36,069 nucleotides of DNA, taken from assembly GCA_905480125.1 (NCBI GenBank), contig CAJQPE010000107.1:1-36069 (forward strand), in the 5' to 3' direction. Each line of letters starts with the position of its first letter. Position 1 is the stretch's first letter. Both the position numbers and the translations under genes were made by a program. This DNA comes from an uncultured Flavobacteriales bacterium. GTDB lineage: Bacteria > Bacteroidota > Bacteroidia > Flavobacteriales_G > NORP312. Below the pieces are notes generated by a model that was not told the origin of the DNA, searched no databases, and was given only the letters and a program-made list of their open reading frames with translations. This document shows, in pieces, positions 1 to 36,069 of the stretch.

Positions 1-384
1 TTTCTGGGCTGCTTCTGCTTCTAGTTTGGCTTGTGCCTCTTCCGCTGCTTGTTTTGCCGCTGCTTCTTCCGCTAATCTCTTTGCTTCAGAATCGCGAGCT
101 AATCTTTCTTGCTCTGCTTTCTGGGCTGCTTCTGCTTCTAGTTTGGCTTGTGCCTCTTCTGCTGCTTGTTTTGCCGCTGCTTCTTCCGCTAATCTCTTTG
201 CTTCAGAATCGCGAGCTAATCTTTCTTGATCTGCTTTCTGGGCTGCTTCTGCTTCTAGTTTGGCTTGTGCCTCTTCCGCTGCTTGTTTTGCCGCTGCTTC
301 TTCCGCTAATCTATTTGCTTCAGAATCGCGAGCTAATCTTTCTTGCTCTGCTTTCTGGGCTGCTTCTGCTTCTAGTTTGGCTTT
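1..384 (-). repeat. 117-bp in-frame tandem repeat coding for 39-residue units
   Basis: Units begin at 1, 118, 235 and 352 (the last is partial) with an exact period of 117 bp. The three full units differ from each other at only one to three bases, so the array expanded recently or is homogenised by recombination. Each unit encodes a helix-forming segment starting KLEAEAAQKAEQERLARDSE and ending in KQAAEEAQA. The array continues past the left edge, so its copy number is unknown. Because 117 is divisible by three, copy changes keep the frame. Confidence 0.95.
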
Positions 385-480
385 AACTTCTTTGTTTAGA
401 CGTTTTTCTTCAGTGAGTTTAGCTTGGGCTAACTCCTCCTCTTTCTTCTTATTTCCGAATAACCTATCTAAAAACCCCAT
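1..480 (-). CDS. ftsY: Signal recognition particle receptor FtsY, N-terminal part (cut by window edge)
   Basis: The open frame starts at ATG 480 and runs off the left edge. The first residues, MGFLDRLFGNKKKEEELAQ, resemble the start of FtsY, the membrane-associated GTPase that receives SRP-ribosome complexes at the Sec translocon. The rest of the visible part is a charged Ala/Glu/Lys/Arg region made of near-identical 39-residue repeats, probably a long helix comparable to the acidic A-domain of other FtsY proteins. The GTPase (NG) domain would lie outside the window, so it cannot be checked. The name rests mostly on synteny: rpmB, rpmG, DUF4295 and ftsY are neighbours in many Bacteroidota. 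A TolA-like or other coiled-coil protein remains possible. Confidence 0.65.
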   Translation of the reverse strand, partial: MGFLDRLFGNKKKEEELAQAKLTEEKRLNKEVKAKLEAEAAQKAEQERLARDSEANRLAEEAAAKQAAEEAQAKLEAEAAQKADQERLARDSEAKRLAEEAAAKQAAEEAQAKLEAEAAQKAEQERLARDSEAKRLAEEAAAKQAAEEAQAKLEAEAAQK

Positions 481-26891: not shown

Positions 26892-27638
26892 TTATTTTAG
26901 GAACTGTATTAGCTTAGATAAAGGTTTTTGGTAAAGTGTGAAATAGTTTGGCTTAAGATAATTAACCCGCCATGCCTTTCTATCTTCAAGGTTAGCTTTT
27001 ACTCGATTAATAATTGAAGAATTACTCTTTCCTCCAACTCGCATTTTTACTAAAACTTCTGGAATATATTTAATTGAAATTTTATTTCCATGCAAAAAGC
27101 GAAGCATTAATTCATAATCCGCAGATATTTTAAATGAGGTATTATAGGCCCCTAAATCCGCAAACAATCTGCGCTTAGCATAAAAAGTGGGGTGTGGAGG
27201 CATCCAACCATTCAAAAACATTCCATCAGAATAGCTCCCAGCTTTCCAATCACGAAATACCTTGTTCAAATTATCTTTATCCACATATTGTAAATCTGAA
27301 TATATCGCCTCGCATTTGCTTTTAATAAAAACTTCAACAACTTTACTAATTACATCTTTCGCTGCTAATACATCGTCCGCATGAACTAAGCCAACAATTT
27401 CACCTGTAGCAACTTTAATACCCTTATTAATAGCATAGTATAACCCGTTATCAGCTTCAGAAAAACATTTCATTATTTGGCTTGAATATGACCTTATAAT
27501 TTCTAGTGTACGATCCGTTGATTTTCCATCAATGACAATATATTCAATGTCTTGATAATTTTGAGAAATAACTGAATCAATCGTATCCTTAATGGTTGCA
27601 GCACTATTGTAACATACGGTAATAATTGAAACCTTCAT
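26892..27638 (-). CDS. Glycosyltransferase family 2 (WcaA-like)
   Basis: 248 residues of the GT-A fold: VSIITVCYNSAATIKDTIDS, then VIDGKSTDRTLEII for nucleotide-sugar binding, and VGLVHADDVLAAKD carrying the metal-binding Asp pair. Downstream PPHPTFYAKRRLF is typical of polysaccharide GT2 enzymes. It adds a sugar to the growing repeat unit at the inner membrane; donor and acceptor are unknown. It is the last gene of the polysaccharide operon and overlaps the acetyltransferase stop by four bases (ATGA). Confidence 0.9.
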   Translation of the reverse strand: MKVSIITVCYNSAATIKDTIDSVISQNYQDIEYIVIDGKSTDRTLEIIRSYSSQIMKCFSEADNGLYYAINKGIKVATGEIVGLVHADDVLAAKDVISKVVEVFIKSKCEAIYSDLQYVDKDNLNKVFRDWKAGSYSDGMFLNGWMPPHPTFYAKRRLFADLGAYNTSFKISADYELMLRFLHGNKISIKYIPEVLVKMRVGGKSNSSIINRVKANLEDRKAWRVNYLKPNYFTLYQKPLSKLIQFLK

Positions 27639-28186
27639 GCTATATTACGGTCTCTTATTTTTACAGCTGGGTTACCTTTATAAACGGAATACTCTTGCAT
27701 ATCATCACATGCTACAGAATTAACCCCTAGAACAGAATGGTTTCTACATATAACTCCTTGTGCTACAATTGACTTCGCACCAATCCAAACACCGTCTTCA
27801 ATTTTGATAGGCTTAACAATTAAATCAAAATTTACTGCAGAATAATCATGGTTTCCACTCAATATTAATGCACCTTGAGAAATACAAACCTGATTACCAA
27901 TTTCTACCACATCTAAATTATCTATCCATACATTTTCTCCAAGCCAAGTGTTATTTCCAACATGCAGTTTCCATGGGTACTTAATATTCAATTTAGGTTT
28001 GAGGATAACTCCCGTACCTATTTTAGCCCCAAAAAACCTGAGAATAACACGCTTAATTGAAGATACGGGAAGTAAATACGAATTAAAAGCAACGGCATTT
28101 ATAATATACCATAAAAGAACCACAATTTTATTCTTACCAATATCAAACCAGTCATTATTAAATTTTGATAAATCTGTCGAATTCAT
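27635..28186 (-). CDS. WcaF-type left-handed beta-helix acetyltransferase
   Basis: 183 residues. After a hydrophobic N-terminal stretch (KIVVLLWYIINAVAFNSYLL) come hexapeptide repeats: IGTGVILKPKLNIKY, VGNNTWLGENVWI, IGNQVCISQGALIL and DGVWIGAKSIVAQG. The active-site His is in SGNHDYSAVNFDL and the ending YSVYKGNPAVKIRDR is typical. It closely resembles WcaF, the colanic-acid acetyltransferase, and probably O-acetylates a sugar of the exported polysaccharide with acetyl-CoA. Confidence 0.9.
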   Translation of the reverse strand: MNSTDLSKFNNDWFDIGKNKIVVLLWYIINAVAFNSYLLPVSSIKRVILRFFGAKIGTGVILKPKLNIKYPWKLHVGNNTWLGENVWIDNLDVVEIGNQVCISQGALILSGNHDYSAVNFDLIVKPIKIEDGVWIGAKSIVAQGVICRNHSVLGVNSVACDDMQEYSVYKGNPAVKIRDRNIA

Positions 28187-28198
28187 TTTCTAATCACA

Positions 28199-29344
28199 TT
28201 AATTACCAAACAAATCTACACTTTGTTTGACAATTGTCTCGTCTTCAATTATGCTCTTTGAAAACTTACTGCACGATGCTACATATTTATCAAAATCCTT
28301 CTGATTCATCTGAGCTGCTTCGCTAATCGTATTATTGATTTCACCTTTTCGTTTCAAATCTAAATCCCAACCTAAAACCTTTTCATTAAGATTTTTCCAA
28401 GGAGTTTGGTCACTTATTATCACTGGTCTAGCTGCCATAAAACTTTCTAAAACAACATGACCAAAATTTTCTCCAAAGGATAGTAGTGTTAAAAAATGAT
28501 ATTTTTTTATGGTTTCTTCAATACTCTTTGGGTGAATGGTGCCTCGATAACTAATTTTGATATTGTTAGGCATTTTACTAATTAACACCTGACATTCTTG
28601 CCAATATTTTAGATTATATAGCGTGCCATAAATATCTAATGTAATATTTGCAGTTTGTTTCATTAAAATTTCCAATAATTGATACAGATTTTTCTCAGGA
28701 GATATACGAGCTATCGATATCAGACTTAAGACATCCTTTACCTTCTCAGTCGATGAAGTTGGAATATTTAGGTTTACTTTATGCAAATTTGGAGCAATTT
28801 TAACGTTAGCATTTTTACCAATTGAATTATAAATATCTTGTTTCTCATCCTCATTTGTTGCGTGAAACTCTGCCTCTCTATAAAGTTTCAGCAACGAAGC
28901 TAAAAACAAAAACAAACGTTTTTTATAGAATTTAATTCCAATCGCGCTACCAGCTAACATACCCCGGGCTGATACTAAAACATGTTTTCCCATCCCCTTC
29001 GAAATTAGAAGAGGGTATATGGAGAAATACTTTGAATATATCCCATTGACATACATTATATCAAATTCTATCGACTTAACTAATTTCTTAAGAAAAGAAA
29101 AATTAAGATTACTATCTGATACATAGTAAACCGAAGAACCGTCCTTTTGATTGTTCCAAACATTAGGTTTGATAAACTCATACGGCTCCTTTTCGCAATA
29201 GTCAGTATTTCTTGTTACAATATAGAAATCATAATAATTAGATAGATGTCCGACTAAATTAGCACAAGAAGTAATTGGACCGCCAGCCTTGAAACCAGGT
29301 AAGTACCAATCTATAAAAAGTAATATCTTTTTTTTAGGCTTCAA
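28199..29344 (-). CDS. Glycosyltransferase family 4
   Basis: 381 residues. The N-terminal KILLFIDWYLPGFKAGGPIT is the acceptor-side glycine-rich start of GT4 enzymes in polysaccharide loci; the C-terminal domain has SIARISPEKNLYQLLEIL and the donor-binding FGENFGHVVLESFMAARPVI with the spaced Glu motif. The start codon overlaps the end of asnB by 11 bases, showing tight coupling. The sugar transferred is unknown. Confidence 0.9.
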   Translation of the reverse strand: MKPKKKILLFIDWYLPGFKAGGPITSCANLVGHLSNYYDFYIVTRNTDYCEKEPYEFIKPNVWNNQKDGSSVYYVSDSNLNFSFLKKLVKSIEFDIMYVNGIYSKYFSIYPLLISKGMGKHVLVSARGMLAGSAIGIKFYKKRLFLFLASLLKLYREAEFHATNEDEKQDIYNSIGKNANVKIAPNLHKVNLNIPTSSTEKVKDVLSLISIARISPEKNLYQLLEILMKQTANITLDIYGTLYNLKYWQECQVLISKMPNNIKISYRGTIHPKSIEETIKKYHFLTLLSFGENFGHVVLESFMAARPVIISDQTPWKNLNEKVLGWDLDLKRKGEINNTISEAAQMNQKDFDKYVASCSKFSKSIIEDETIVKQSVDLFGN

Positions 29345-31205
29345 TATTATTACGCTTTAACCAGTCTTCTAAAACAACAATATGCCATACCCTACTCCAC
29401 GAAACCTTAGGATCATTTTTCAAAAAAGAATTCCACAATTGGATAACCACCCCTCCTTCAAAAATGCCTCTTTTTTCTATACTTTCCATTCGATCGACAC
29501 AAAACTCTCTTAACTCATTTTTGAGCCATTTTGTCCAAGGCAAAACGAAACCCATTTTTTTTCTATAAATAACCTCGTCTGGAACAAGGCCTTTAAATGA
29601 ATCTGTTAATAAACTCTTTGGCGTTAAAGGGTACTTGATGTCGTCTGAGACGGATAATACATATTCTATCAATTGATGATCTAAAAAAGGCACTCTAACC
29701 TCTAAAGCACTTGCCATACTCATCTGATCAGTATCTCTTAGTAAAGTATTTTGCATATAAGTAGACAGCTCATATATACTTACTTCGCTCAACAAAGGTA
29801 AATCAGTTTTGCGATTCAGGGGAGCGAATTGACCCAACAAACTTATTTTTTCAGCACTTTTAGCCCCCGATAAAATATTTACCTGACTGTTAAGAAGGGT
29901 TTTTCTATATGTGGGATATAAGTATCTAGTTGATATTTTAGAAAGACTCAGAACTTCAGCTATTTTTTCACCACTTACCCCGCTTGCAGTTCGCGCATAT
30001 AATTGGCCAAATAATTTCCTTAAATTTACGGGAACTTTGTTTAAGTAGCTTTTCGAATTAACATCCAAGGCTTGTTTAAAAATCGAATAGCCGGCAAATA
30101 ATTCGTCCCCTCCCAATCCTGACAAAGCAACTGTAATTCCGGCCTTCTTGGTTGCTTTTGAGACTAAGTAAGAATTAGGACCATCACCACTTGGATGATC
30201 CATCCTTGCTAATGCATTTGGTAACTCATCAATGAAATTCTCTACCTTTAACTGTATTTCATTATGGTTGGTTTTGAAATGTTTTGCAACAATATTGGAA
30301 TATTTAGCCTCAGAGAATTTTTGATCGTCAAAAGTTATTGAAAAAGTATTTACGGGCTTCGTATTAATTTTACTCATCAAACCAACAATAAGACTAGAGT
30401 CTATTCCTCCTGACAAAAATGCCCAAAAAGGCACATCAGATATCATCCTTCTTTCTACAGACTCAGTAAGCAGTTGAGCTACCTTATCGGTAACTTGCTT
30501 TTTAGAATGCGTTAATACGTTTGGATTAATACATTTTGTTGGTTCCCAATACTTTTCAATAATTATTTTATTCCCTCTAATTCTCATGTAAGAGCCTGGC
30601 AAAAGAACATTTACATTCTCTACTATGGTTTTTGGTGCATGGACTGTTTGATACTGAAGGTATTCCGGCAAAACACTTTTATTAAGTTTTCGAGGAACTT
30701 CCTCTGACGCTAGTAAAGCCCTAATCTCAGAAGAAAATACAATGCAGCTTTCTTGAATGGAATAATAAAGAGGTTTTATTCCAGCTCTATCACGGGCAAT
30801 AAATAGTTCTTTCTGCTCCTTATTCCAAATAGCAAAAGAAAACATTCCGTTAAACAACTTAACACAATCCTGGCCAAGAGCTATGTACGCCGCAAGAATT
30901 ACTTCTGTATCTGTGTTCGTCTGAAATGGGTAATCTTTTAGTTGCCTCTTTATTTCTTGATAATTATATAATTCACCATTATAAACTATAACAAATTTCT
31001 CGTCAACTGAAAGAAATGGCTGATGGCCATCCGATGACAAATCAATTATTGCGAGTCTTTGGTGACCTAGGGAAATATTTTCATCAGAATAAACACCGCT
31101 ATCATCAGGCCCACGGTGTTGAAGAGCAATATTCATACCTTCAACTTGGCTGCTATATTGCACTTTCTTATTCCCAGTATGAAATACTCCGTTTATTCCA
31201 CACAT
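29334..31205 (-). CDS. asnB: Asparagine synthase (glutamine-hydrolysing) of a polysaccharide locus
   Basis: 623 residues, full length. Cys2 after the initiator Met (MCGINGVFH) is the glutaminase nucleophile, with QHRGPDDSG, RLAIIDLSSDGHQP and NGELYN completing that domain. The synthetase domain has the ATP PP-loop SGGIDS (265-270) and SGLGGDELFAGY. It would make asparagine from aspartate, but copies inside polysaccharide operons are often thought to amidate a sugar acid or uronic acid of the polymer. The gene overlaps neighbours on both sides. The biosynthetic target here is an inference. Confidence 0.92.
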   Translation of the reverse strand: MCGINGVFHTGNKKVQYSSQVEGMNIALQHRGPDDSGVYSDENISLGHQRLAIIDLSSDGHQPFLSVDEKFVIVYNGELYNYQEIKRQLKDYPFQTNTDTEVILAAYIALGQDCVKLFNGMFSFAIWNKEQKELFIARDRAGIKPLYYSIQESCIVFSSEIRALLASEEVPRKLNKSVLPEYLQYQTVHAPKTIVENVNVLLPGSYMRIRGNKIIIEKYWEPTKCINPNVLTHSKKQVTDKVAQLLTESVERRMISDVPFWAFLSGGIDSSLIVGLMSKINTKPVNTFSITFDDQKFSEAKYSNIVAKHFKTNHNEIQLKVENFIDELPNALARMDHPSGDGPNSYLVSKATKKAGITVALSGLGGDELFAGYSIFKQALDVNSKSYLNKVPVNLRKLFGQLYARTASGVSGEKIAEVLSLSKISTRYLYPTYRKTLLNSQVNILSGAKSAEKISLLGQFAPLNRKTDLPLLSEVSIYELSTYMQNTLLRDTDQMSMASALEVRVPFLDHQLIEYVLSVSDDIKYPLTPKSLLTDSFKGLVPDEVIYRKKMGFVLPWTKWLKNELREFCVDRMESIEKRGIFEGGVVIQLWNSFLKNDPKVSWSRVWHIVVLEDWLKRNNIEA

Positions 31206-32137
31206 GAATTAACGAAATTTTCATCTGCCAACATAAGTTTTATCCCTTCTTCAATTGACAATAAATCTCTTCCAAGTATAGACAACATCTTTGTATTATC
31301 AGGCTGCCTTCTAGTCATATCCCCGTCTTTTAAAGGGGGCAGATTAATAATCTTTGAGTCTGAATTAGTTAAGCTAATTATCATTTTAGCAAGGTCAATT
31401 ATTTTAATAACAACATCTCCGCCAATATTAATTATGTCATTAACCACCTTATTTTCATCTAATATTTTGACGCATGAGTCTATATTATCATCAACATAAC
31501 AAAACGTTCTAGTCTGGCTTCCATCGCCATAAACAGTGATATCTTGATTATTGAGTGCCGAACGAATAAAACGAGTTACAACAAAATCAGGACTTTGATT
31601 TACTCCATAAGTATTAAAAAATCTAAAAATGGTATAATCTAAATCATACTCTTGCTTGTATGATTTTAAATATGCCTCCCCGACATTTTTAACAATAGCA
31701 TAAGGAACTCTAGAATTAAGCGGTGTTGTGTGCTCATGTTGAGGCAATTCCACTGGTTCACCATATACCTCCGATGAAGACGAAAAGAAAACTCTTTTAA
31801 CTCCAGTGTTCTTGCTAAGCTCAAGAATATATTTTATACCATCAATATCTTCAAGAACCTTTATTGGATTTTCTTGCGTTCTTGCCACACCAACTAGTGC
31901 TGCAAAGTGAAATACATAATCGAAATTATTCGATATCATCAACTCTGAGATACCTTTATACTTATTAATATCGCAATTAATAAATTTCCATTTTGGTGAT
32001 GGAGGTGGCAACTTATTTTTTAAACCAGTCGAAAGATTATCTGCTACGACAATATGATTTTGATTATTCTGTAATAATTTTTTTACCAAAGCGCTTCCGA
32101 TATTTCCCGCTCCACCTGTAACTAGTATTTTACACAT
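31193..32137 (-). CDS. NAD-dependent sugar epimerase/dehydratase (extended SDR)
   Basis: 314 residues. The NAD-binding GGAGNIGSALVKKLL is at the N-terminus, followed by FHFAALVGVARTQENP, the Ser in FFSSSSEVYGEP and the catalytic YxxxK in VPYAIVKNVGEAYL. GDGSQTRTFCYVDDNIDS matches UDP-glucose 4-epimerase and UDP-glucuronate decarboxylase relatives. It probably makes a nucleotide-sugar precursor for the polymer. The start overlaps the upstream glycosyltransferase by 8 bases and its stop overlaps asnB by 13 bases. Confidence 0.9.
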   Translation of the reverse strand: MCKILVTGGAGNIGSALVKKLLQNNQNHIVVADNLSTGLKNKLPPPSPKWKFINCDINKYKGISELMISNNFDYVFHFAALVGVARTQENPIKVLEDIDGIKYILELSKNTGVKRVFFSSSSEVYGEPVELPQHEHTTPLNSRVPYAIVKNVGEAYLKSYKQEYDLDYTIFRFFNTYGVNQSPDFVVTRFIRSALNNQDITVYGDGSQTRTFCYVDDNIDSCVKILDENKVVNDIINIGGDVVIKIIDLAKMIISLTNSDSKIINLPPLKDGDMTRRQPDNTKMLSILGRDLLSIEEGIKLMLADENFVNSCVE

Positions 32138-33182
32138 TTTTAAATTCCATTATTGCACTGACCCAAAGGTCAACATTTATTTTATTACCTATCTCCGAAC
32201 TAGCCTTCTGAAATTTGATTAATGAAGACTGCTCCATAGCGAATATTTTTTTTAAAGACGTTTTGATGCTCGAGATGTCTCCCGATTTAAAGGTATAGCC
32301 ATTAATGTTTTCTTCCAAAAAAACTTCTGAAGAACCTACTTTATCACTTACCAACAAAGGTAATCCTGATAATGCAAATTCTTGAAGTGTTACTCCCCAG
32401 GGTTCAAAATGGCTAGGTAGAATATATACACCCGATTTGGATATGACATCATTCATCTCTTTTGGCTGTAAAAAGCCAAAATGTTTTATTGAATTATGTA
32501 TTATCCGATTCTCAAACTCTTCACCTGTTCCAACACACCACAATTCCCAGTCAGAAAATTTTTCTTCAGTCACCTCTATAAATGCTCTCCAAAGATCATA
32601 AATACCTTTATGCTTAACATACCTGCCAACATACAAAATAACTTTAGGAAAATTTTGTTCTTTAGATATTTTATTTTGTAAATAAAAATTTCTGAATAAC
32701 TCAACATTTGCGGTGTAAAAACCTTTTTGAATATAGGCACTATCGAATCCTAATTTCTCCGCATATCTATATTGTTTAGATCCAGGAACCCAGGCATGTG
32801 AGAATTTAGAAGTTAAAAAATAACGCGCAATAAAAACACCTAATAATTGCTTTATATTACCGTTCCATTGATTATCTAAAGCCAATATAGTTGGTATTTT
32901 AGTCTTATAATATGAGCAAATTTTGAGATATACCGAATCAACCCAACCTGAGCAAATTATTTTGTCTGGATCAATACATCTAACTGCCTCAAGTAAATCA
33001 GCTTTGTGATTGTACTTTTTTCTCGAGTAGAGTATCACACCATCCACCAAATCGAATTCGAAAGGTGCTTCTGCATTAATTTCCCAATAAAAAACATGAA
33101 CTATGTTTCTTGCTTTAGCCAATTCATTAAAGCAATTAACAATATACCCAGCAAGTTCCGTATATAAAAAAACAACTTTCAA
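32130..33182 (-). CDS. Glycosyltransferase family 4, TTG start
   Basis: 350 residues beginning KVVFLYTELAGYIVNCFNEL. The C-terminal GT-B domain has VILYVGRYVKHKGIYDLWRA and PSHFEPWGVTLQEFALSGLP with the donor-binding Glu pair. No ATG is available at the right place; the TTG at 33182 overlaps the SGNH stop (TTGA) and gives the proper N-terminus, so TTG is taken as the start, which may lower translation. Sugar specificity cannot be judged. Confidence 0.88.
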   Translation of the reverse strand: MKVVFLYTELAGYIVNCFNELAKARNIVHVFYWEINAEAPFEFDLVDGVILYSRKKYNHKADLLEAVRCIDPDKIICSGWVDSVYLKICSYYKTKIPTILALDNQWNGNIKQLLGVFIARYFLTSKFSHAWVPGSKQYRYAEKLGFDSAYIQKGFYTANVELFRNFYLQNKISKEQNFPKVILYVGRYVKHKGIYDLWRAFIEVTEEKFSDWELWCVGTGEEFENRIIHNSIKHFGFLQPKEMNDVISKSGVYILPSHFEPWGVTLQEFALSGLPLLVSDKVGSSEVFLEENINGYTFKSGDISSIKTSLKKIFAMEQSSLIKFQKASSEIGNKINVDLWVSAIMEFKNV

Positions 33183-34102
33183 TCTAGAATTGATTTGAAA
33201 ACATATGGATATGCTACTTCTGCCATGTTTTTTTGCCCTAAATTGTTTAAATGGATATTGTCCCGATATCCGTCTGTTGTTTCGTGTTTCATCCCGTCAA
33301 TAAACTCAATTTCATTTGTTTTAAAAATATTAATCCATTCCTCTCCATCAATATTGTATTTCTTTGCTTTAAGTTCTTTTAATTCTGGATGCAAATACGG
33401 AATTAGTTTTATTTCATTCAGCTTACAGTAATCGATAAGTTCTTGAATATAAATATTTTTTCTGGCAGACACATCGACTTGATTTTTAGCTAGACGCAAG
33501 CGGTATTTATGGAGCCATTCAGTGTATTCAGGAGTAATAATCTTATAGTCCTGACGAATCAAATACCTGTTGATCAATTCCAGGATAGCTATACTTGGAT
33601 TATTATTTGGATGGCTTTTATGTCTGCCAACTATTGGTTTAAAAGTCATATTATCTTTTAAATCATGACTAGACACTACCCAAAATATACTTTTAGCACC
33701 AAAATTTCCAAACTTATTTAAATAGGCCATTACATTTCCCGGGCCCCAACTTCCGGCAGAAATATTTAAAAATTCACCGGTACTAGAGAAATCATTCTTT
33801 ATTTTTAAATCCATTATGGTGGTTGCAAGATGATTATGGTCAGTAGGTTGCCCTCCATTAATTATTGAGTCTCCTAAACCTAAAATTCTAACTTTAGTGC
33901 CTGTTTTCAACTCTTCACTCCGCATAGAGTAGCTGTTAGTTATGATGTTTTTGAAAAATCTGTTTATATTTTGATTTGGAGCCATCAGATATTCGCAATT
34001 TGGATCTGAAATGTAAAGAACTGGAGTCAAAACTCCGAGCATCCTTAAAATAAGCTCAACACTTAATAGAATCAATAGACTATACCTTAACAATTTCAAC
34101 AT
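33179..34102 (-). CDS. Membrane-anchored SGNH/GDSL hydrolase-like protein
   Basis: About 307 residues. One N-terminal membrane anchor (about 4-30) is followed by ILGLGDSIINGG with Ser79 as nucleophile, ISAGSWGPGNVMAYL as the Gly/Asn blocks and DNIHLNNLG as the Asp-His block. This fits an SGNH esterase or acyltransferase facing the periplasm. Its place between the polymerase and a glycosyltransferase suggests that it adds or removes acyl groups on the polymer. The ATG at 34102 overlaps the polymerase stop by 23 bases; two ATGs upstream (34150, 34117) are less likely. It is not a well-known named gene. Confidence 0.8.
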   Translation of the reverse strand: MLKLLRYSLLILLSVELILRMLGVLTPVLYISDPNCEYLMAPNQNINRFFKNIITNSYSMRSEELKTGTKVRILGLGDSIINGGQPTDHNHLATTIMDLKIKNDFSSTGEFLNISAGSWGPGNVMAYLNKFGNFGAKSIFWVVSSHDLKDNMTFKPIVGRHKSHPNNNPSIAILELINRYLIRQDYKIITPEYTEWLHKYRLRLAKNQVDVSARKNIYIQELIDYCKLNEIKLIPYLHPELKELKAKKYNIDGEEWINIFKTNEIEFIDGMKHETTDGYRDNIHLNNLGQKNMAEVAYPYVFKSILD

Positions 34103-35408
34103 GGTTCTGATCCTCATAATTAATTTCAGGAATATGCAAAATAACCGCAATACAGATAATAAATTGAATAGTAAAAGGATTTAAGGAAGCTGCCAACCAA
34201 GGTTCAAAATTAGCAACAAATAAACAAGCAAAAAGAATTGGCAATGCTAATCCTGAATTTTTTGCCGCATTAAAAAACAATTGTGTTAAAGAAAAAAGAT
34301 AGAGTAACAGACCAACTGCACCAGTATTTAACCACAAAATAAGATAAACATTGTGAACACCACCTTGATGATTTAACACGTTTAAAGTTTTTTGAATCGG
34401 ACCAAATATCCAGTATTCATCATAGGCCCATCCTCTCCCAAAAAACATATTTTTTTGAATTTCTTCCCAAGCAAATCTCCATGCTACTGTTCTTCCAGAT
34501 GCATTCTCTACTGATTCAGCACCATCTGCTATTCTTAACTGATTATTTAGGCCTAATTGATCGACAATAGTTAAGCCTATTATAAAAACATAGTCATAAA
34601 CTAAAACTACAAACAACATTATGACAAGTGAAATCGTTGGGGATATCCCCGAAAACTGTCTAAAGAATAAAAAAATTAGAACCGAAATCCAACTCGTTCT
34701 TGAACCAGTTAAATACAAGGTGAAAATTATTACGATAATAATTGTGATGTTATTTATTCTGCTTAGAATATTCATTTCACTAAATGTATCTTTGAATAAT
34801 TGAAATAGAATAAAATTAAAAAAACACATCATAGCAAGTCCATTTGGATTCCCTAATAAACCATGAAGCCTGCCACCATGTGAATAAACCATGTTTGGAA
34901 ATATTGGAATTAAAACAATTCCGATTAACAATATTAGTATAGAAAAATTTACCATATCCAATAAGATTTTTGGGCCTTCTCTATCTATCAAATAAGTTAC
35001 ATAACCAGGTATGGTAAGAAATAGCAAGATATAGGACAAATTCTTCTGAAAAGCCACTAAAGTATTTGGGCTAAGTAACAATAACAAAATTGTGTAAGAA
35101 AAAAAAATTGCAAAAGATTTAAATACCTTATTACCTGCCCATAAATTAGAATTTTTAACTGTAAACAATGTAAATATTAGAATGAGTAATGGCTTTATTT
35201 TTTTTGCAAAAAACATGTCTGGATTATCTGAAAAAACAAGAATCACGTAAAAAAAAAGTAAAACCTCCTTATGGTGTCCCTTTGCTATGAAAAGAATAAA
35301 AATAAGTGGAACTAGAATATAAGAAACTATCGGTAAAAGCCAACCAGTAAAAGCAACAATAATAGTTGCAATTATCAATATTCTATATTCTCTTATAAAA
35401 TCTAACAA
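34080..35408 (-). CDS. O-antigen/polysaccharide polymerase (Wzy/O-antigen ligase family), TTG start
   Basis: 442 residues with about ten to twelve hydrophobic segments and a larger extracytoplasmic loop (about 280-340) containing NASGRTVAWRFAWEEI and GRGWAYDEYW, then HNVYLILWLNTGAVGLLLYL. TGSRTSWISVLIFLFF in the fifth-sixth helix region is typical of the Wzy/WaaL (PF04932) family. It probably polymerises repeat units on the periplasmic side. There is no ATG at the start; TTG at 35408 is the only plausible start since an in-frame stop lies 12 bases upstream. It lies 107 bp after the kinase gene. Confidence 0.85.
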   Translation of the reverse strand: MLDFIREYRILIIATIIVAFTGWLLPIVSYILVPLIFILFIAKGHHKEVLLFFYVILVFSDNPDMFFAKKIKPLLILIFTLFTVKNSNLWAGNKVFKSFAIFFSYTILLLLLSPNTLVAFQKNLSYILLFLTIPGYVTYLIDREGPKILLDMVNFSILILLIGIVLIPIFPNMVYSHGGRLHGLLGNPNGLAMMCFFNFILFQLFKDTFSEMNILSRINNITIIIVIIFTLYLTGSRTSWISVLIFLFFRQFSGISPTISLVIMLFVVLVYDYVFIIGLTIVDQLGLNNQLRIADGAESVENASGRTVAWRFAWEEIQKNMFFGRGWAYDEYWIFGPIQKTLNVLNHQGGVHNVYLILWLNTGAVGLLLYLFSLTQLFFNAAKNSGLALPILFACLFVANFEPWLAASLNPFTIQFIICIAVILHIPEINYEDQNHVEIVKV

Positions 35409-35515: not shown

Positions 35516-36069
35516 CTACACTTTTTTTTCGGGATCATCTTCAAAGTCATAAAGGTAACCATCTTGATCACCAGAGTTACCGTATCCATAACCATATCCG
35601 TATCCGTATCCGTATCCGTATCCGTACTTACTATAGTAATAACTAAGTTTCTTTTGTTTGATGCTATTCAAAATAAGTGCGTTATTACTCATTTTGCTTT
35701 TTTCAATTATCCCGTCAATCATCTTAAGTTCGTTTCTCTTTGCTTTCATAGAATTTATAACATAAATAGTAACATCCATCTTCTTCATCAAAATCATTGC
35801 ATCGCTTATCAAACCTAAAGGGGGCGTGTCAAATATCAAGTAATCGTATTTACTATTAACCTCATCAATAAATTTAATCATCTGATCTGACATAATTAAT
35901 TCAGATGGATTGGGAGGAACTGGACCAGCAAAGACAACATCTAAATATTCCACGTGCGTTTTTTGAACCACTTCACCAAAGGTCTTTTTATTACTTAACA
36001 AATTAGACAATCCTTTGTCGTTTTCGGCATCAAACATTTTGTTAATTTTTGGTTTATGCAGATCGACAT
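35516..36069 (-). CDS. Polysaccharide-export tyrosine autokinase (Wzc/CpsD type), C-terminal part (cut by window edge)
   Basis: At least 184 residues visible; the frame is open to the right edge. VDLHKPKINKMFDAENDKGL is the conserved stretch just after Walker A, and YDYLIFDTPPLGLISDAMIL is the Walker B region of bacterial tyrosine kinases. The tail SYYYSKYGYG continues with eight Tyr-Gly pairs and then GYLYDF, a tyrosine cluster as used for autophosphorylation. Such kinases control polymer length and export together with a Wza-type pore. The Walker A motif and chain-length domain are outside the window. It heads the polysaccharide operon as seen here. Confidence 0.9.
   Translation of the reverse strand, partial: VDLHKPKINKMFDAENDKGLSNLLSNKKTFGEVVQKTHVEYLDVVFAGPVPPNPSELIMSDQMIKFIDEVNSKYDYLIFDTPPLGLISDAMILMKKMDVTIYVINSMKAKRNELKMIDGIIEKSKMSNNALILNSIKQKKLSYYYSKYGYGYGYGYGYGYGYGNSGDQDGYLYDFEDDPEKKV
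35579..35626 (-). repeat. Hexanucleotide repeat coding for eight Tyr-Gly pairs
   Basis: Eight tandem 6-bp units (mostly TACGGA, with variants TATGGT, TATGGA and TACGGT at one end) encode the (Tyr-Gly)8 tail of the kinase. Five units are identical, a tract liable to gain or lose units by slippage. Each change adds or removes one Tyr-Gly pair without shifting frame. Confidence 0.93.

Follow-up and report, generated by a model that had tools for sequence, protein, structure and literature searches.

In E. coli Wzc, the YxY motifs of the C-terminal tail are described as working like a ratchet: one tyrosine lies in the active site with the tyrosine two residues before it in a pocket, phosphorylation runs from the C-terminus inward, and the octamer disassembles once four phosphates have been added (PMC11986026). 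No single tail tyrosine of this kinase is reported to be essential or sufficient (PMC8285477). For V. cholerae VpsO, both the number and the position of the phosphorylated tyrosines mattered (PMC7485978). Substitutions in the tyrosine cluster of Streptococcus CpsD alter capsule production (PMC4574921), and the cytoplasmic part of Ptk1 from P. gingivalis, a Bacteroidota relative, autophosphorylates (PMC4082711). Taken together, the VpsO and Wzc data make tyrosine number a plausible quantity to tune. The ratchet model gives the spacing and number of tyrosines a direct role in setting how long surface polysaccharide chains become.

Simple-sequence contingency loci, short tandem repeats that are able to slip, are known for phase variation. 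In E. coli TolA, in-frame repeats tune an envelope protein; contractions occur with a frequency of 6.9e-5 and remove several units together (PMC3477136). Here we analyzed a stretch of 36,069 nucleotides from an uncultured Flavobacteriales bacterium (the window), which ends in a BY-kinase gene with a Tyr-Gly repeat in its tail. The initial annotation of this DNA had proposed that slippage of the repeat in 6-bp steps might act as a graded switch of surface polysaccharide.

Results

By its sequence, the gene at the end of the window is a Wzc-type tyrosine autokinase of the PCP-2a/BY-kinase family (Table 1). Read by eye, the fragment holds the end of Walker A′, Walker B (YDYLIFDTPP), and the tyrosine tail, and it scored 132.2 bits against TIGR01007 (polysaccharide tyrosine autokinase; cut-off 108.05), with 185.1 bits for a full orthologue. 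We found a 620-residue 5′ part, comprising the N-terminus and Walker A, at the start of another contig of the source genome (G000:C70), which shares an exact 19-bp overlap with the end of the window (C107). On the C70 part, the Walker motifs, again read by eye, are GEGKT and VDVDLHK; the window has IFDTPP. The C70 part is 82% identical to a sister-species orthologue (L041), whose Walker A is also GEGKT and in which a Wzz domain (PF02706, 37.7 bits, cut-off 25.5) and an AAA domain both score over their cut-offs. Because the matching 5′ part is present on C70 and the two contigs overlap, the organism most likely carries an intact gene, which only the contig end interrupts.

Table 1. Features at and near the Tyr-Gly array, in window coordinates
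Feature	Position	Strand	Remarks
BY-kinase gene (PCP-2a, Wzc-like), 3′ part	35516..36067	minus	runs off contig end
(Tyr-Gly)8 array	35579..35626	minus	48 bp, aa 148-163 of 183-aa fragment
Pure hexamer run (TACGGA)x5	35597..35626	minus	no other part can slip by exactly 6 bp at a time
Imperfect units TATGGT TATGGA TACGGT	35579..35596	minus	interrupt the repeat
Acidic C-terminal extension NSGDQDGYLYDFEDDPEKKV	35519..35578	minus	past the array; 2 more Tyr, then stop
O-antigen ligase/polymerase-like protein (Wzy_C)	34080..35408	minus	next gene downstream of kinase
Surface polysaccharide genes	26892..33182	minus	glycosyltransferases, NAD-dependent epimerase, asparagine-synthase-like protein, hexapeptide-repeat protein

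The initial annotation had placed a Tyr-Gly repeat in the autokinase tail, and this was confirmed both by Tandem Repeats Finder and by the codons of the minus strand. The program returned positions 35580-35626 with period 6, 7.8 copies, and 90% match, and among its 20 rows for the window this is the sole period-6 array with more than 2.5 copies. On the minus strand, the units read TACGGA five times, followed by TATGGT, TATGGA, and TACGGT, in the protein context SK-(YG)8-NSGD. As had also been stated, the 6-bp unit preserves the frame and the tyrosine count moves by whole units. The stretch of tail that we counted contains 13 tyrosines, nine of them with another tyrosine two residues earlier; as Tyr and Gly alternate in the array, every tyrosine of the array belongs to a YxY motif. 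The published work agrees with the assumption that tail tyrosines are phosphorylated in this family and that polymer output is affected by how far this phosphorylation goes (PMC11986026, PMC8285477, PMC12220298), and by analogy we infer that the tail of the window protein is phosphorylated as well.

A gene that looks like the ligase/polymerase neighbor is also next in line to the sister-species kinase L041 (Flavobacteriales MAG, SI039_bin50). CpsB/CapC-type phosphatases are mostly known from Gram-positive capsule loci; the source genome encodes one of this PHP type (G000:C108:1370-1966), and a search of the same assembly, which is 83% complete, detected no LMW-PTP. At the other end of the window, an Ala/Glu/Lys-rich ORF at 1-480 (minus strand), cut by the contig start and with no Pfam match, contains an in-frame tandem array of 117-bp units (1-383, 3.3 copies, 98% match).

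Sampling one genome per species, we detected a relative of the kinase in 39 of the 42 genomes of the order and in 341/395 genomes sampled from the class. A search of further genome contigs gave three relatives, one of them from the sister genome, and a search of viral contigs gave none. Arrays of 4-12 Tyr-Gly units are common in the order, and a (YG)n tail is, therefore, an ordinary protein feature in Flavobacteriales. In three genomes of the window's genus, (TAYGGN)4 has 37 matches at seven places, all of them BY-kinase tails. Two of 169 loci had no kinase hit and were dropped, as were the duplicates L041 (of L005) and L001-L003 (of L004, L007, and L011). Genus g25 is represented by 82 loci taken from its matches, which favor two of its three orthologue groups, and the ‘class’ group by 8 loci from 8 genomes, a non-random set from near the top of the match list (4 have n of at least 4). 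At locus L069 (G024:C20), an in-frame stop stands just ahead of an otherwise normal YG array; the kinase of this species may no longer end in a tyrosine tail, or the stop may be an assembly error. Locus L063 (G016:C39) has two Ns within its array, and at L036 (G003:C6), the reading frame is lost within the array; because the latter site is close to a contig end, we do not trust the frame loss. Assemblies may stumble at the repeats of these two loci.

The purity of the DNA repeat is unusual in this genus. Pure hexamer runs of at least five units occur in 5/7 of its arrays (runs of 5-9) versus 7/116 arrays elsewhere, counting arrays with n of at least 4, which are non-independent, the genus's seven sharing ancestry. 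The exceptions within the genus are L005, the closest orthologue of the window's kinase, with a longest pure run of 3, and L009, with a run of 1. TAC is the minor Tyr codon in the genus (28%) and GGA accounts for 27%. Under the codon frequencies of the genus's kinase loci, a pure run of at least five among the eight units of the window has a probability of P = 0.006; for the pure runs in L006, L007, and L008, P is 0.0002 or less under genus codon frequencies. The repeat unit differs from gene to gene, being TACGGA in the window, TATGGG in a paralogue on C111, TATGGA in the G002 orthologue of that paralogue, and TATGGG in G001, and differences of this kind indicate that each gene has expanded its own array. 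Outside the genus, locus L166 (G064:C85) has 12 units with a pure run of 9. Loss of mismatch repair was considered as a source of the pure repeats and rejected, as MutS and MutL score over the cut-off in all three genomes of the genus. Two MutS copies lie on separate contigs of G001 (G001:C303 and G001:C177), one with an internal stop, and G001 is possibly a mixed bin.

Matching every kinase to its closest relative, with no locus used twice, gave 50 independent pairs (we excluded loci that lacked a stop, contained X, or had E above 1e-15, and skipped pairs with n<3 on both sides). Of these closest orthologue pairs, 22/50 differ in copy number and 5/50 show an indel in the compared kinase domain. 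Sorted by nucleotide identity, the number differs in 0/7 pairs at 0.93 or above (none from the window's genus, and two being near-identical genomes), 4/11 at 0.85-0.93, 8/16 at 0.78-0.85, and 10/16 below 0.78. The initial annotation had suggested counting the repeats in related strains; between sister species of the genus, orthologous arrays do differ in number, 8/9 and 8/10: the window's array has n = 8 (TACGGA x5) and its orthologue L005 n = 9 (TACGGT/TATGGT) at 86% nucleotide identity, and the paralogue L007 has n = 8 (TATGGG x7) and its orthologue L008 n = 10 (TATGGA x9) at 90%. From these comparisons, copy number seems to drift between species within a range.

In 12 equal-number pairs (nucleotide identity 0.85-0.995), the Tyr codons of the array differ in 24/64 cases versus 143/956 two-fold gene codons, and the Gly codons in 27/64 versus 280/1290 four-fold gene codons; this comparison is made position by position, so that gene conversion or fast point mutation would register too. 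Since units are replaced while their number tends to stay, the data point to unit turnover plus some constraint on array length, and slippage or a slippage-like process is presumably the mutational cause of the array. At the protein level, x-changes in YxY number 79 and Y-changes 29; 72 of the 79 x are R/A, fitting one inherited YRYAY motif in g25.

We also asked how often units at a given distance within an array are identical, using arrays with n of at least 4. In the order (41 arrays), pairs of identical units are fewer than expected at lag 1 (49/287, expected 63.5) and more numerous than expected at lag 2 (77/246, expected 53.7) and lag 3 (57/205, expected 44.1). When each of 14 genera is represented by a single array, the ratios at lags 1-4 are 0.74, 1.41, 1.28, and 0.68, and the same pattern, sought in the Tyr and Gly codons of the gene body, was absent there. 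The depletion at lag 1 has P = 0.0055 when whole units are shuffled; when Tyr and Gly codons are shuffled separately, P is 0.16 for the order and 0.0245 for g25. The 68 distinct arrays of g25 are likewise depleted at lag 1 (70/313, expected 84.6) and raised at lag 3 (58/177, expected 48.4), and lag 2 is non-significant (73/245, expected 66.3). The pattern reads naturally as blocks of 12 and 18 bp being duplicated and lost; the arrays of relatives would then change by such blocks and not by 6 bp. The window's pure run would in principle be free to change one unit at a time.

Discussion

We consider it likely that the window encodes a slippage-built, evolutionarily adjustable YxY tail on a Wzc-type kinase. 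The array would be the autophosphorylation tail of this PCP-2a kinase, with a tyrosine at every second residue and each tyrosine, thereby, part of a YxY motif. As proposed for E. coli Wzc, such motifs would feed tyrosines successively through the active site of a neighbor until the octamer falls apart, and by analogy one repeat unit would correspond to one ratchet step. As a tandem repeat, the array would turn over by slippage or unequal exchange, with units duplicated and lost; this turnover would replace the spelling of whole arrays between sister species and let copy number drift within its range. Most relatives carry codon-mixed units that recur as 12- or 18-bp blocks, and this genus mostly pure hexamer runs. 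The repeat is at most an evolutionary length knob, not a demonstrated switch. If the explanation is true, a frame-preserving DNA repeat would be evolving a regulatory number, and the arrays of 4-12 units within one order would form a natural series, in which the number of steps varies with the motif constant and the ratchet can be tested. The counterpart of the pocket residue E675 of Wzc is Glu in the window and in L005, at the same distance from Walker B, and was found in 4/155 proteins by ungapped offset from sequence alone; as so few proteins have it, the published form of the ratchet may not apply to these kinases as a class.

There is, in our estimate, a lower than even but substantial chance that selection acting only on protein composition is the whole explanation. 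A long, Tyr-rich flexible tail would be kept, n would drift neutrally, and the DNA repeat would be a by-product; this account shares its anatomy and turnover with the adjustable YxY tail and denies any effect of n. It is consistent with the wide variation of n in the order, from 4 to 12, and with the report that no single tyrosine of E. coli Wzc is essential (PMC8285477). Disassembly of the octamer after four phosphates would leave extra tyrosines redundant (PMC11986026), and those beyond about five could be idle. However, the equal n of close pairs despite the turnover of their units hints at some constraint on length, and the g25 orthologue with a ILNGVDIDRNKY tail keeps 5-9 units in the species examined.

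The adjustable YxY tail could be taken further, to a length dial on which each 6-bp unit is a YxY step and n sets the phosphorylations that precede octamer disassembly, and hence chain length; mixed codons would hold the dial steady in most Bacteroidota, and the pure hexamers of this genus would make it movable stepwise. We regard this as unlikely.

We are equally doubtful that the array is a contingency locus, at which hexamer slippage in a growing population would give rise to subclones with differing tyrosine numbers and graded polymer lengths. The pure runs of 5-9 hexamers in five of the seven arrays of the genus would provide the substrate, sister species differ by 1-2 units, and the tuning of E. 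coli TolA at its contraction frequency offers a precedent (PMC3477136). Yet the window has only five pure copies (up to nine in genus relatives), MutS and MutL are present in all three genomes, and n is equal in 7/7 closest pairs, none of them from the genus. Because the closest pairs keep their copy number, a fast graded switch on a population time scale, as the initial annotation had envisaged, is not supported; five of the eight units are pure, and the block that recurs in relatives is 12 or 18 bp instead of the proposed 6-bp step. On/off phase variation by frameshift was rejected, as the 6-bp unit keeps the frame and frame loss was seen once, at L036. It is highly improbable that codon bias alone yields the pure run and makes slippage unnecessary: with two Tyr and four Gly codons identical neighbors are not rare (expected 0.17 in the genus), but the codon frequencies and run probabilities given above, and the homogenization of separate arrays of one genome to different units, argue against it.

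The window's kinase resembles E. coli Wzc (K30, K-12) in family, domain order, Walker motifs, and a C-terminal tail with YxY. The K30 tail is described as irregular, its YxY pattern being broken at N711, whereas the window has an unbroken (YG)8 encoded by a DNA repeat. In the open-licence literature that we searched, Wzc occurs together with YxY only in PMC11986026, and YGYGYG is absent among the top-ranked matches listed. Unlike the E. coli system, the window's relatives seem not to keep the pocket Glu in general, and the phosphatase detected in the source genome is of the CpsB/CapC type instead of an LMW-PTP. Streptococcus CpsD is alike in having a repeated Tyr-Gly tail on a BY-kinase that controls capsule; its tail is (YGX)n, with a period of three residues and few copies, and adaptor and kinase are separate proteins, unlike the window's kinase. 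Compared with contingency loci, the hexamer of the window keeps the frame, has few pure copies and no on/off state, and its variation is known across species only. E. coli tolA, too, is an envelope gene whose repeat preserves the frame, contracts by several units, and acts in a graded way through its copy number; it differs in that the protein is another one, the unit is longer, and variation within the species is shown there (PMC3477136).
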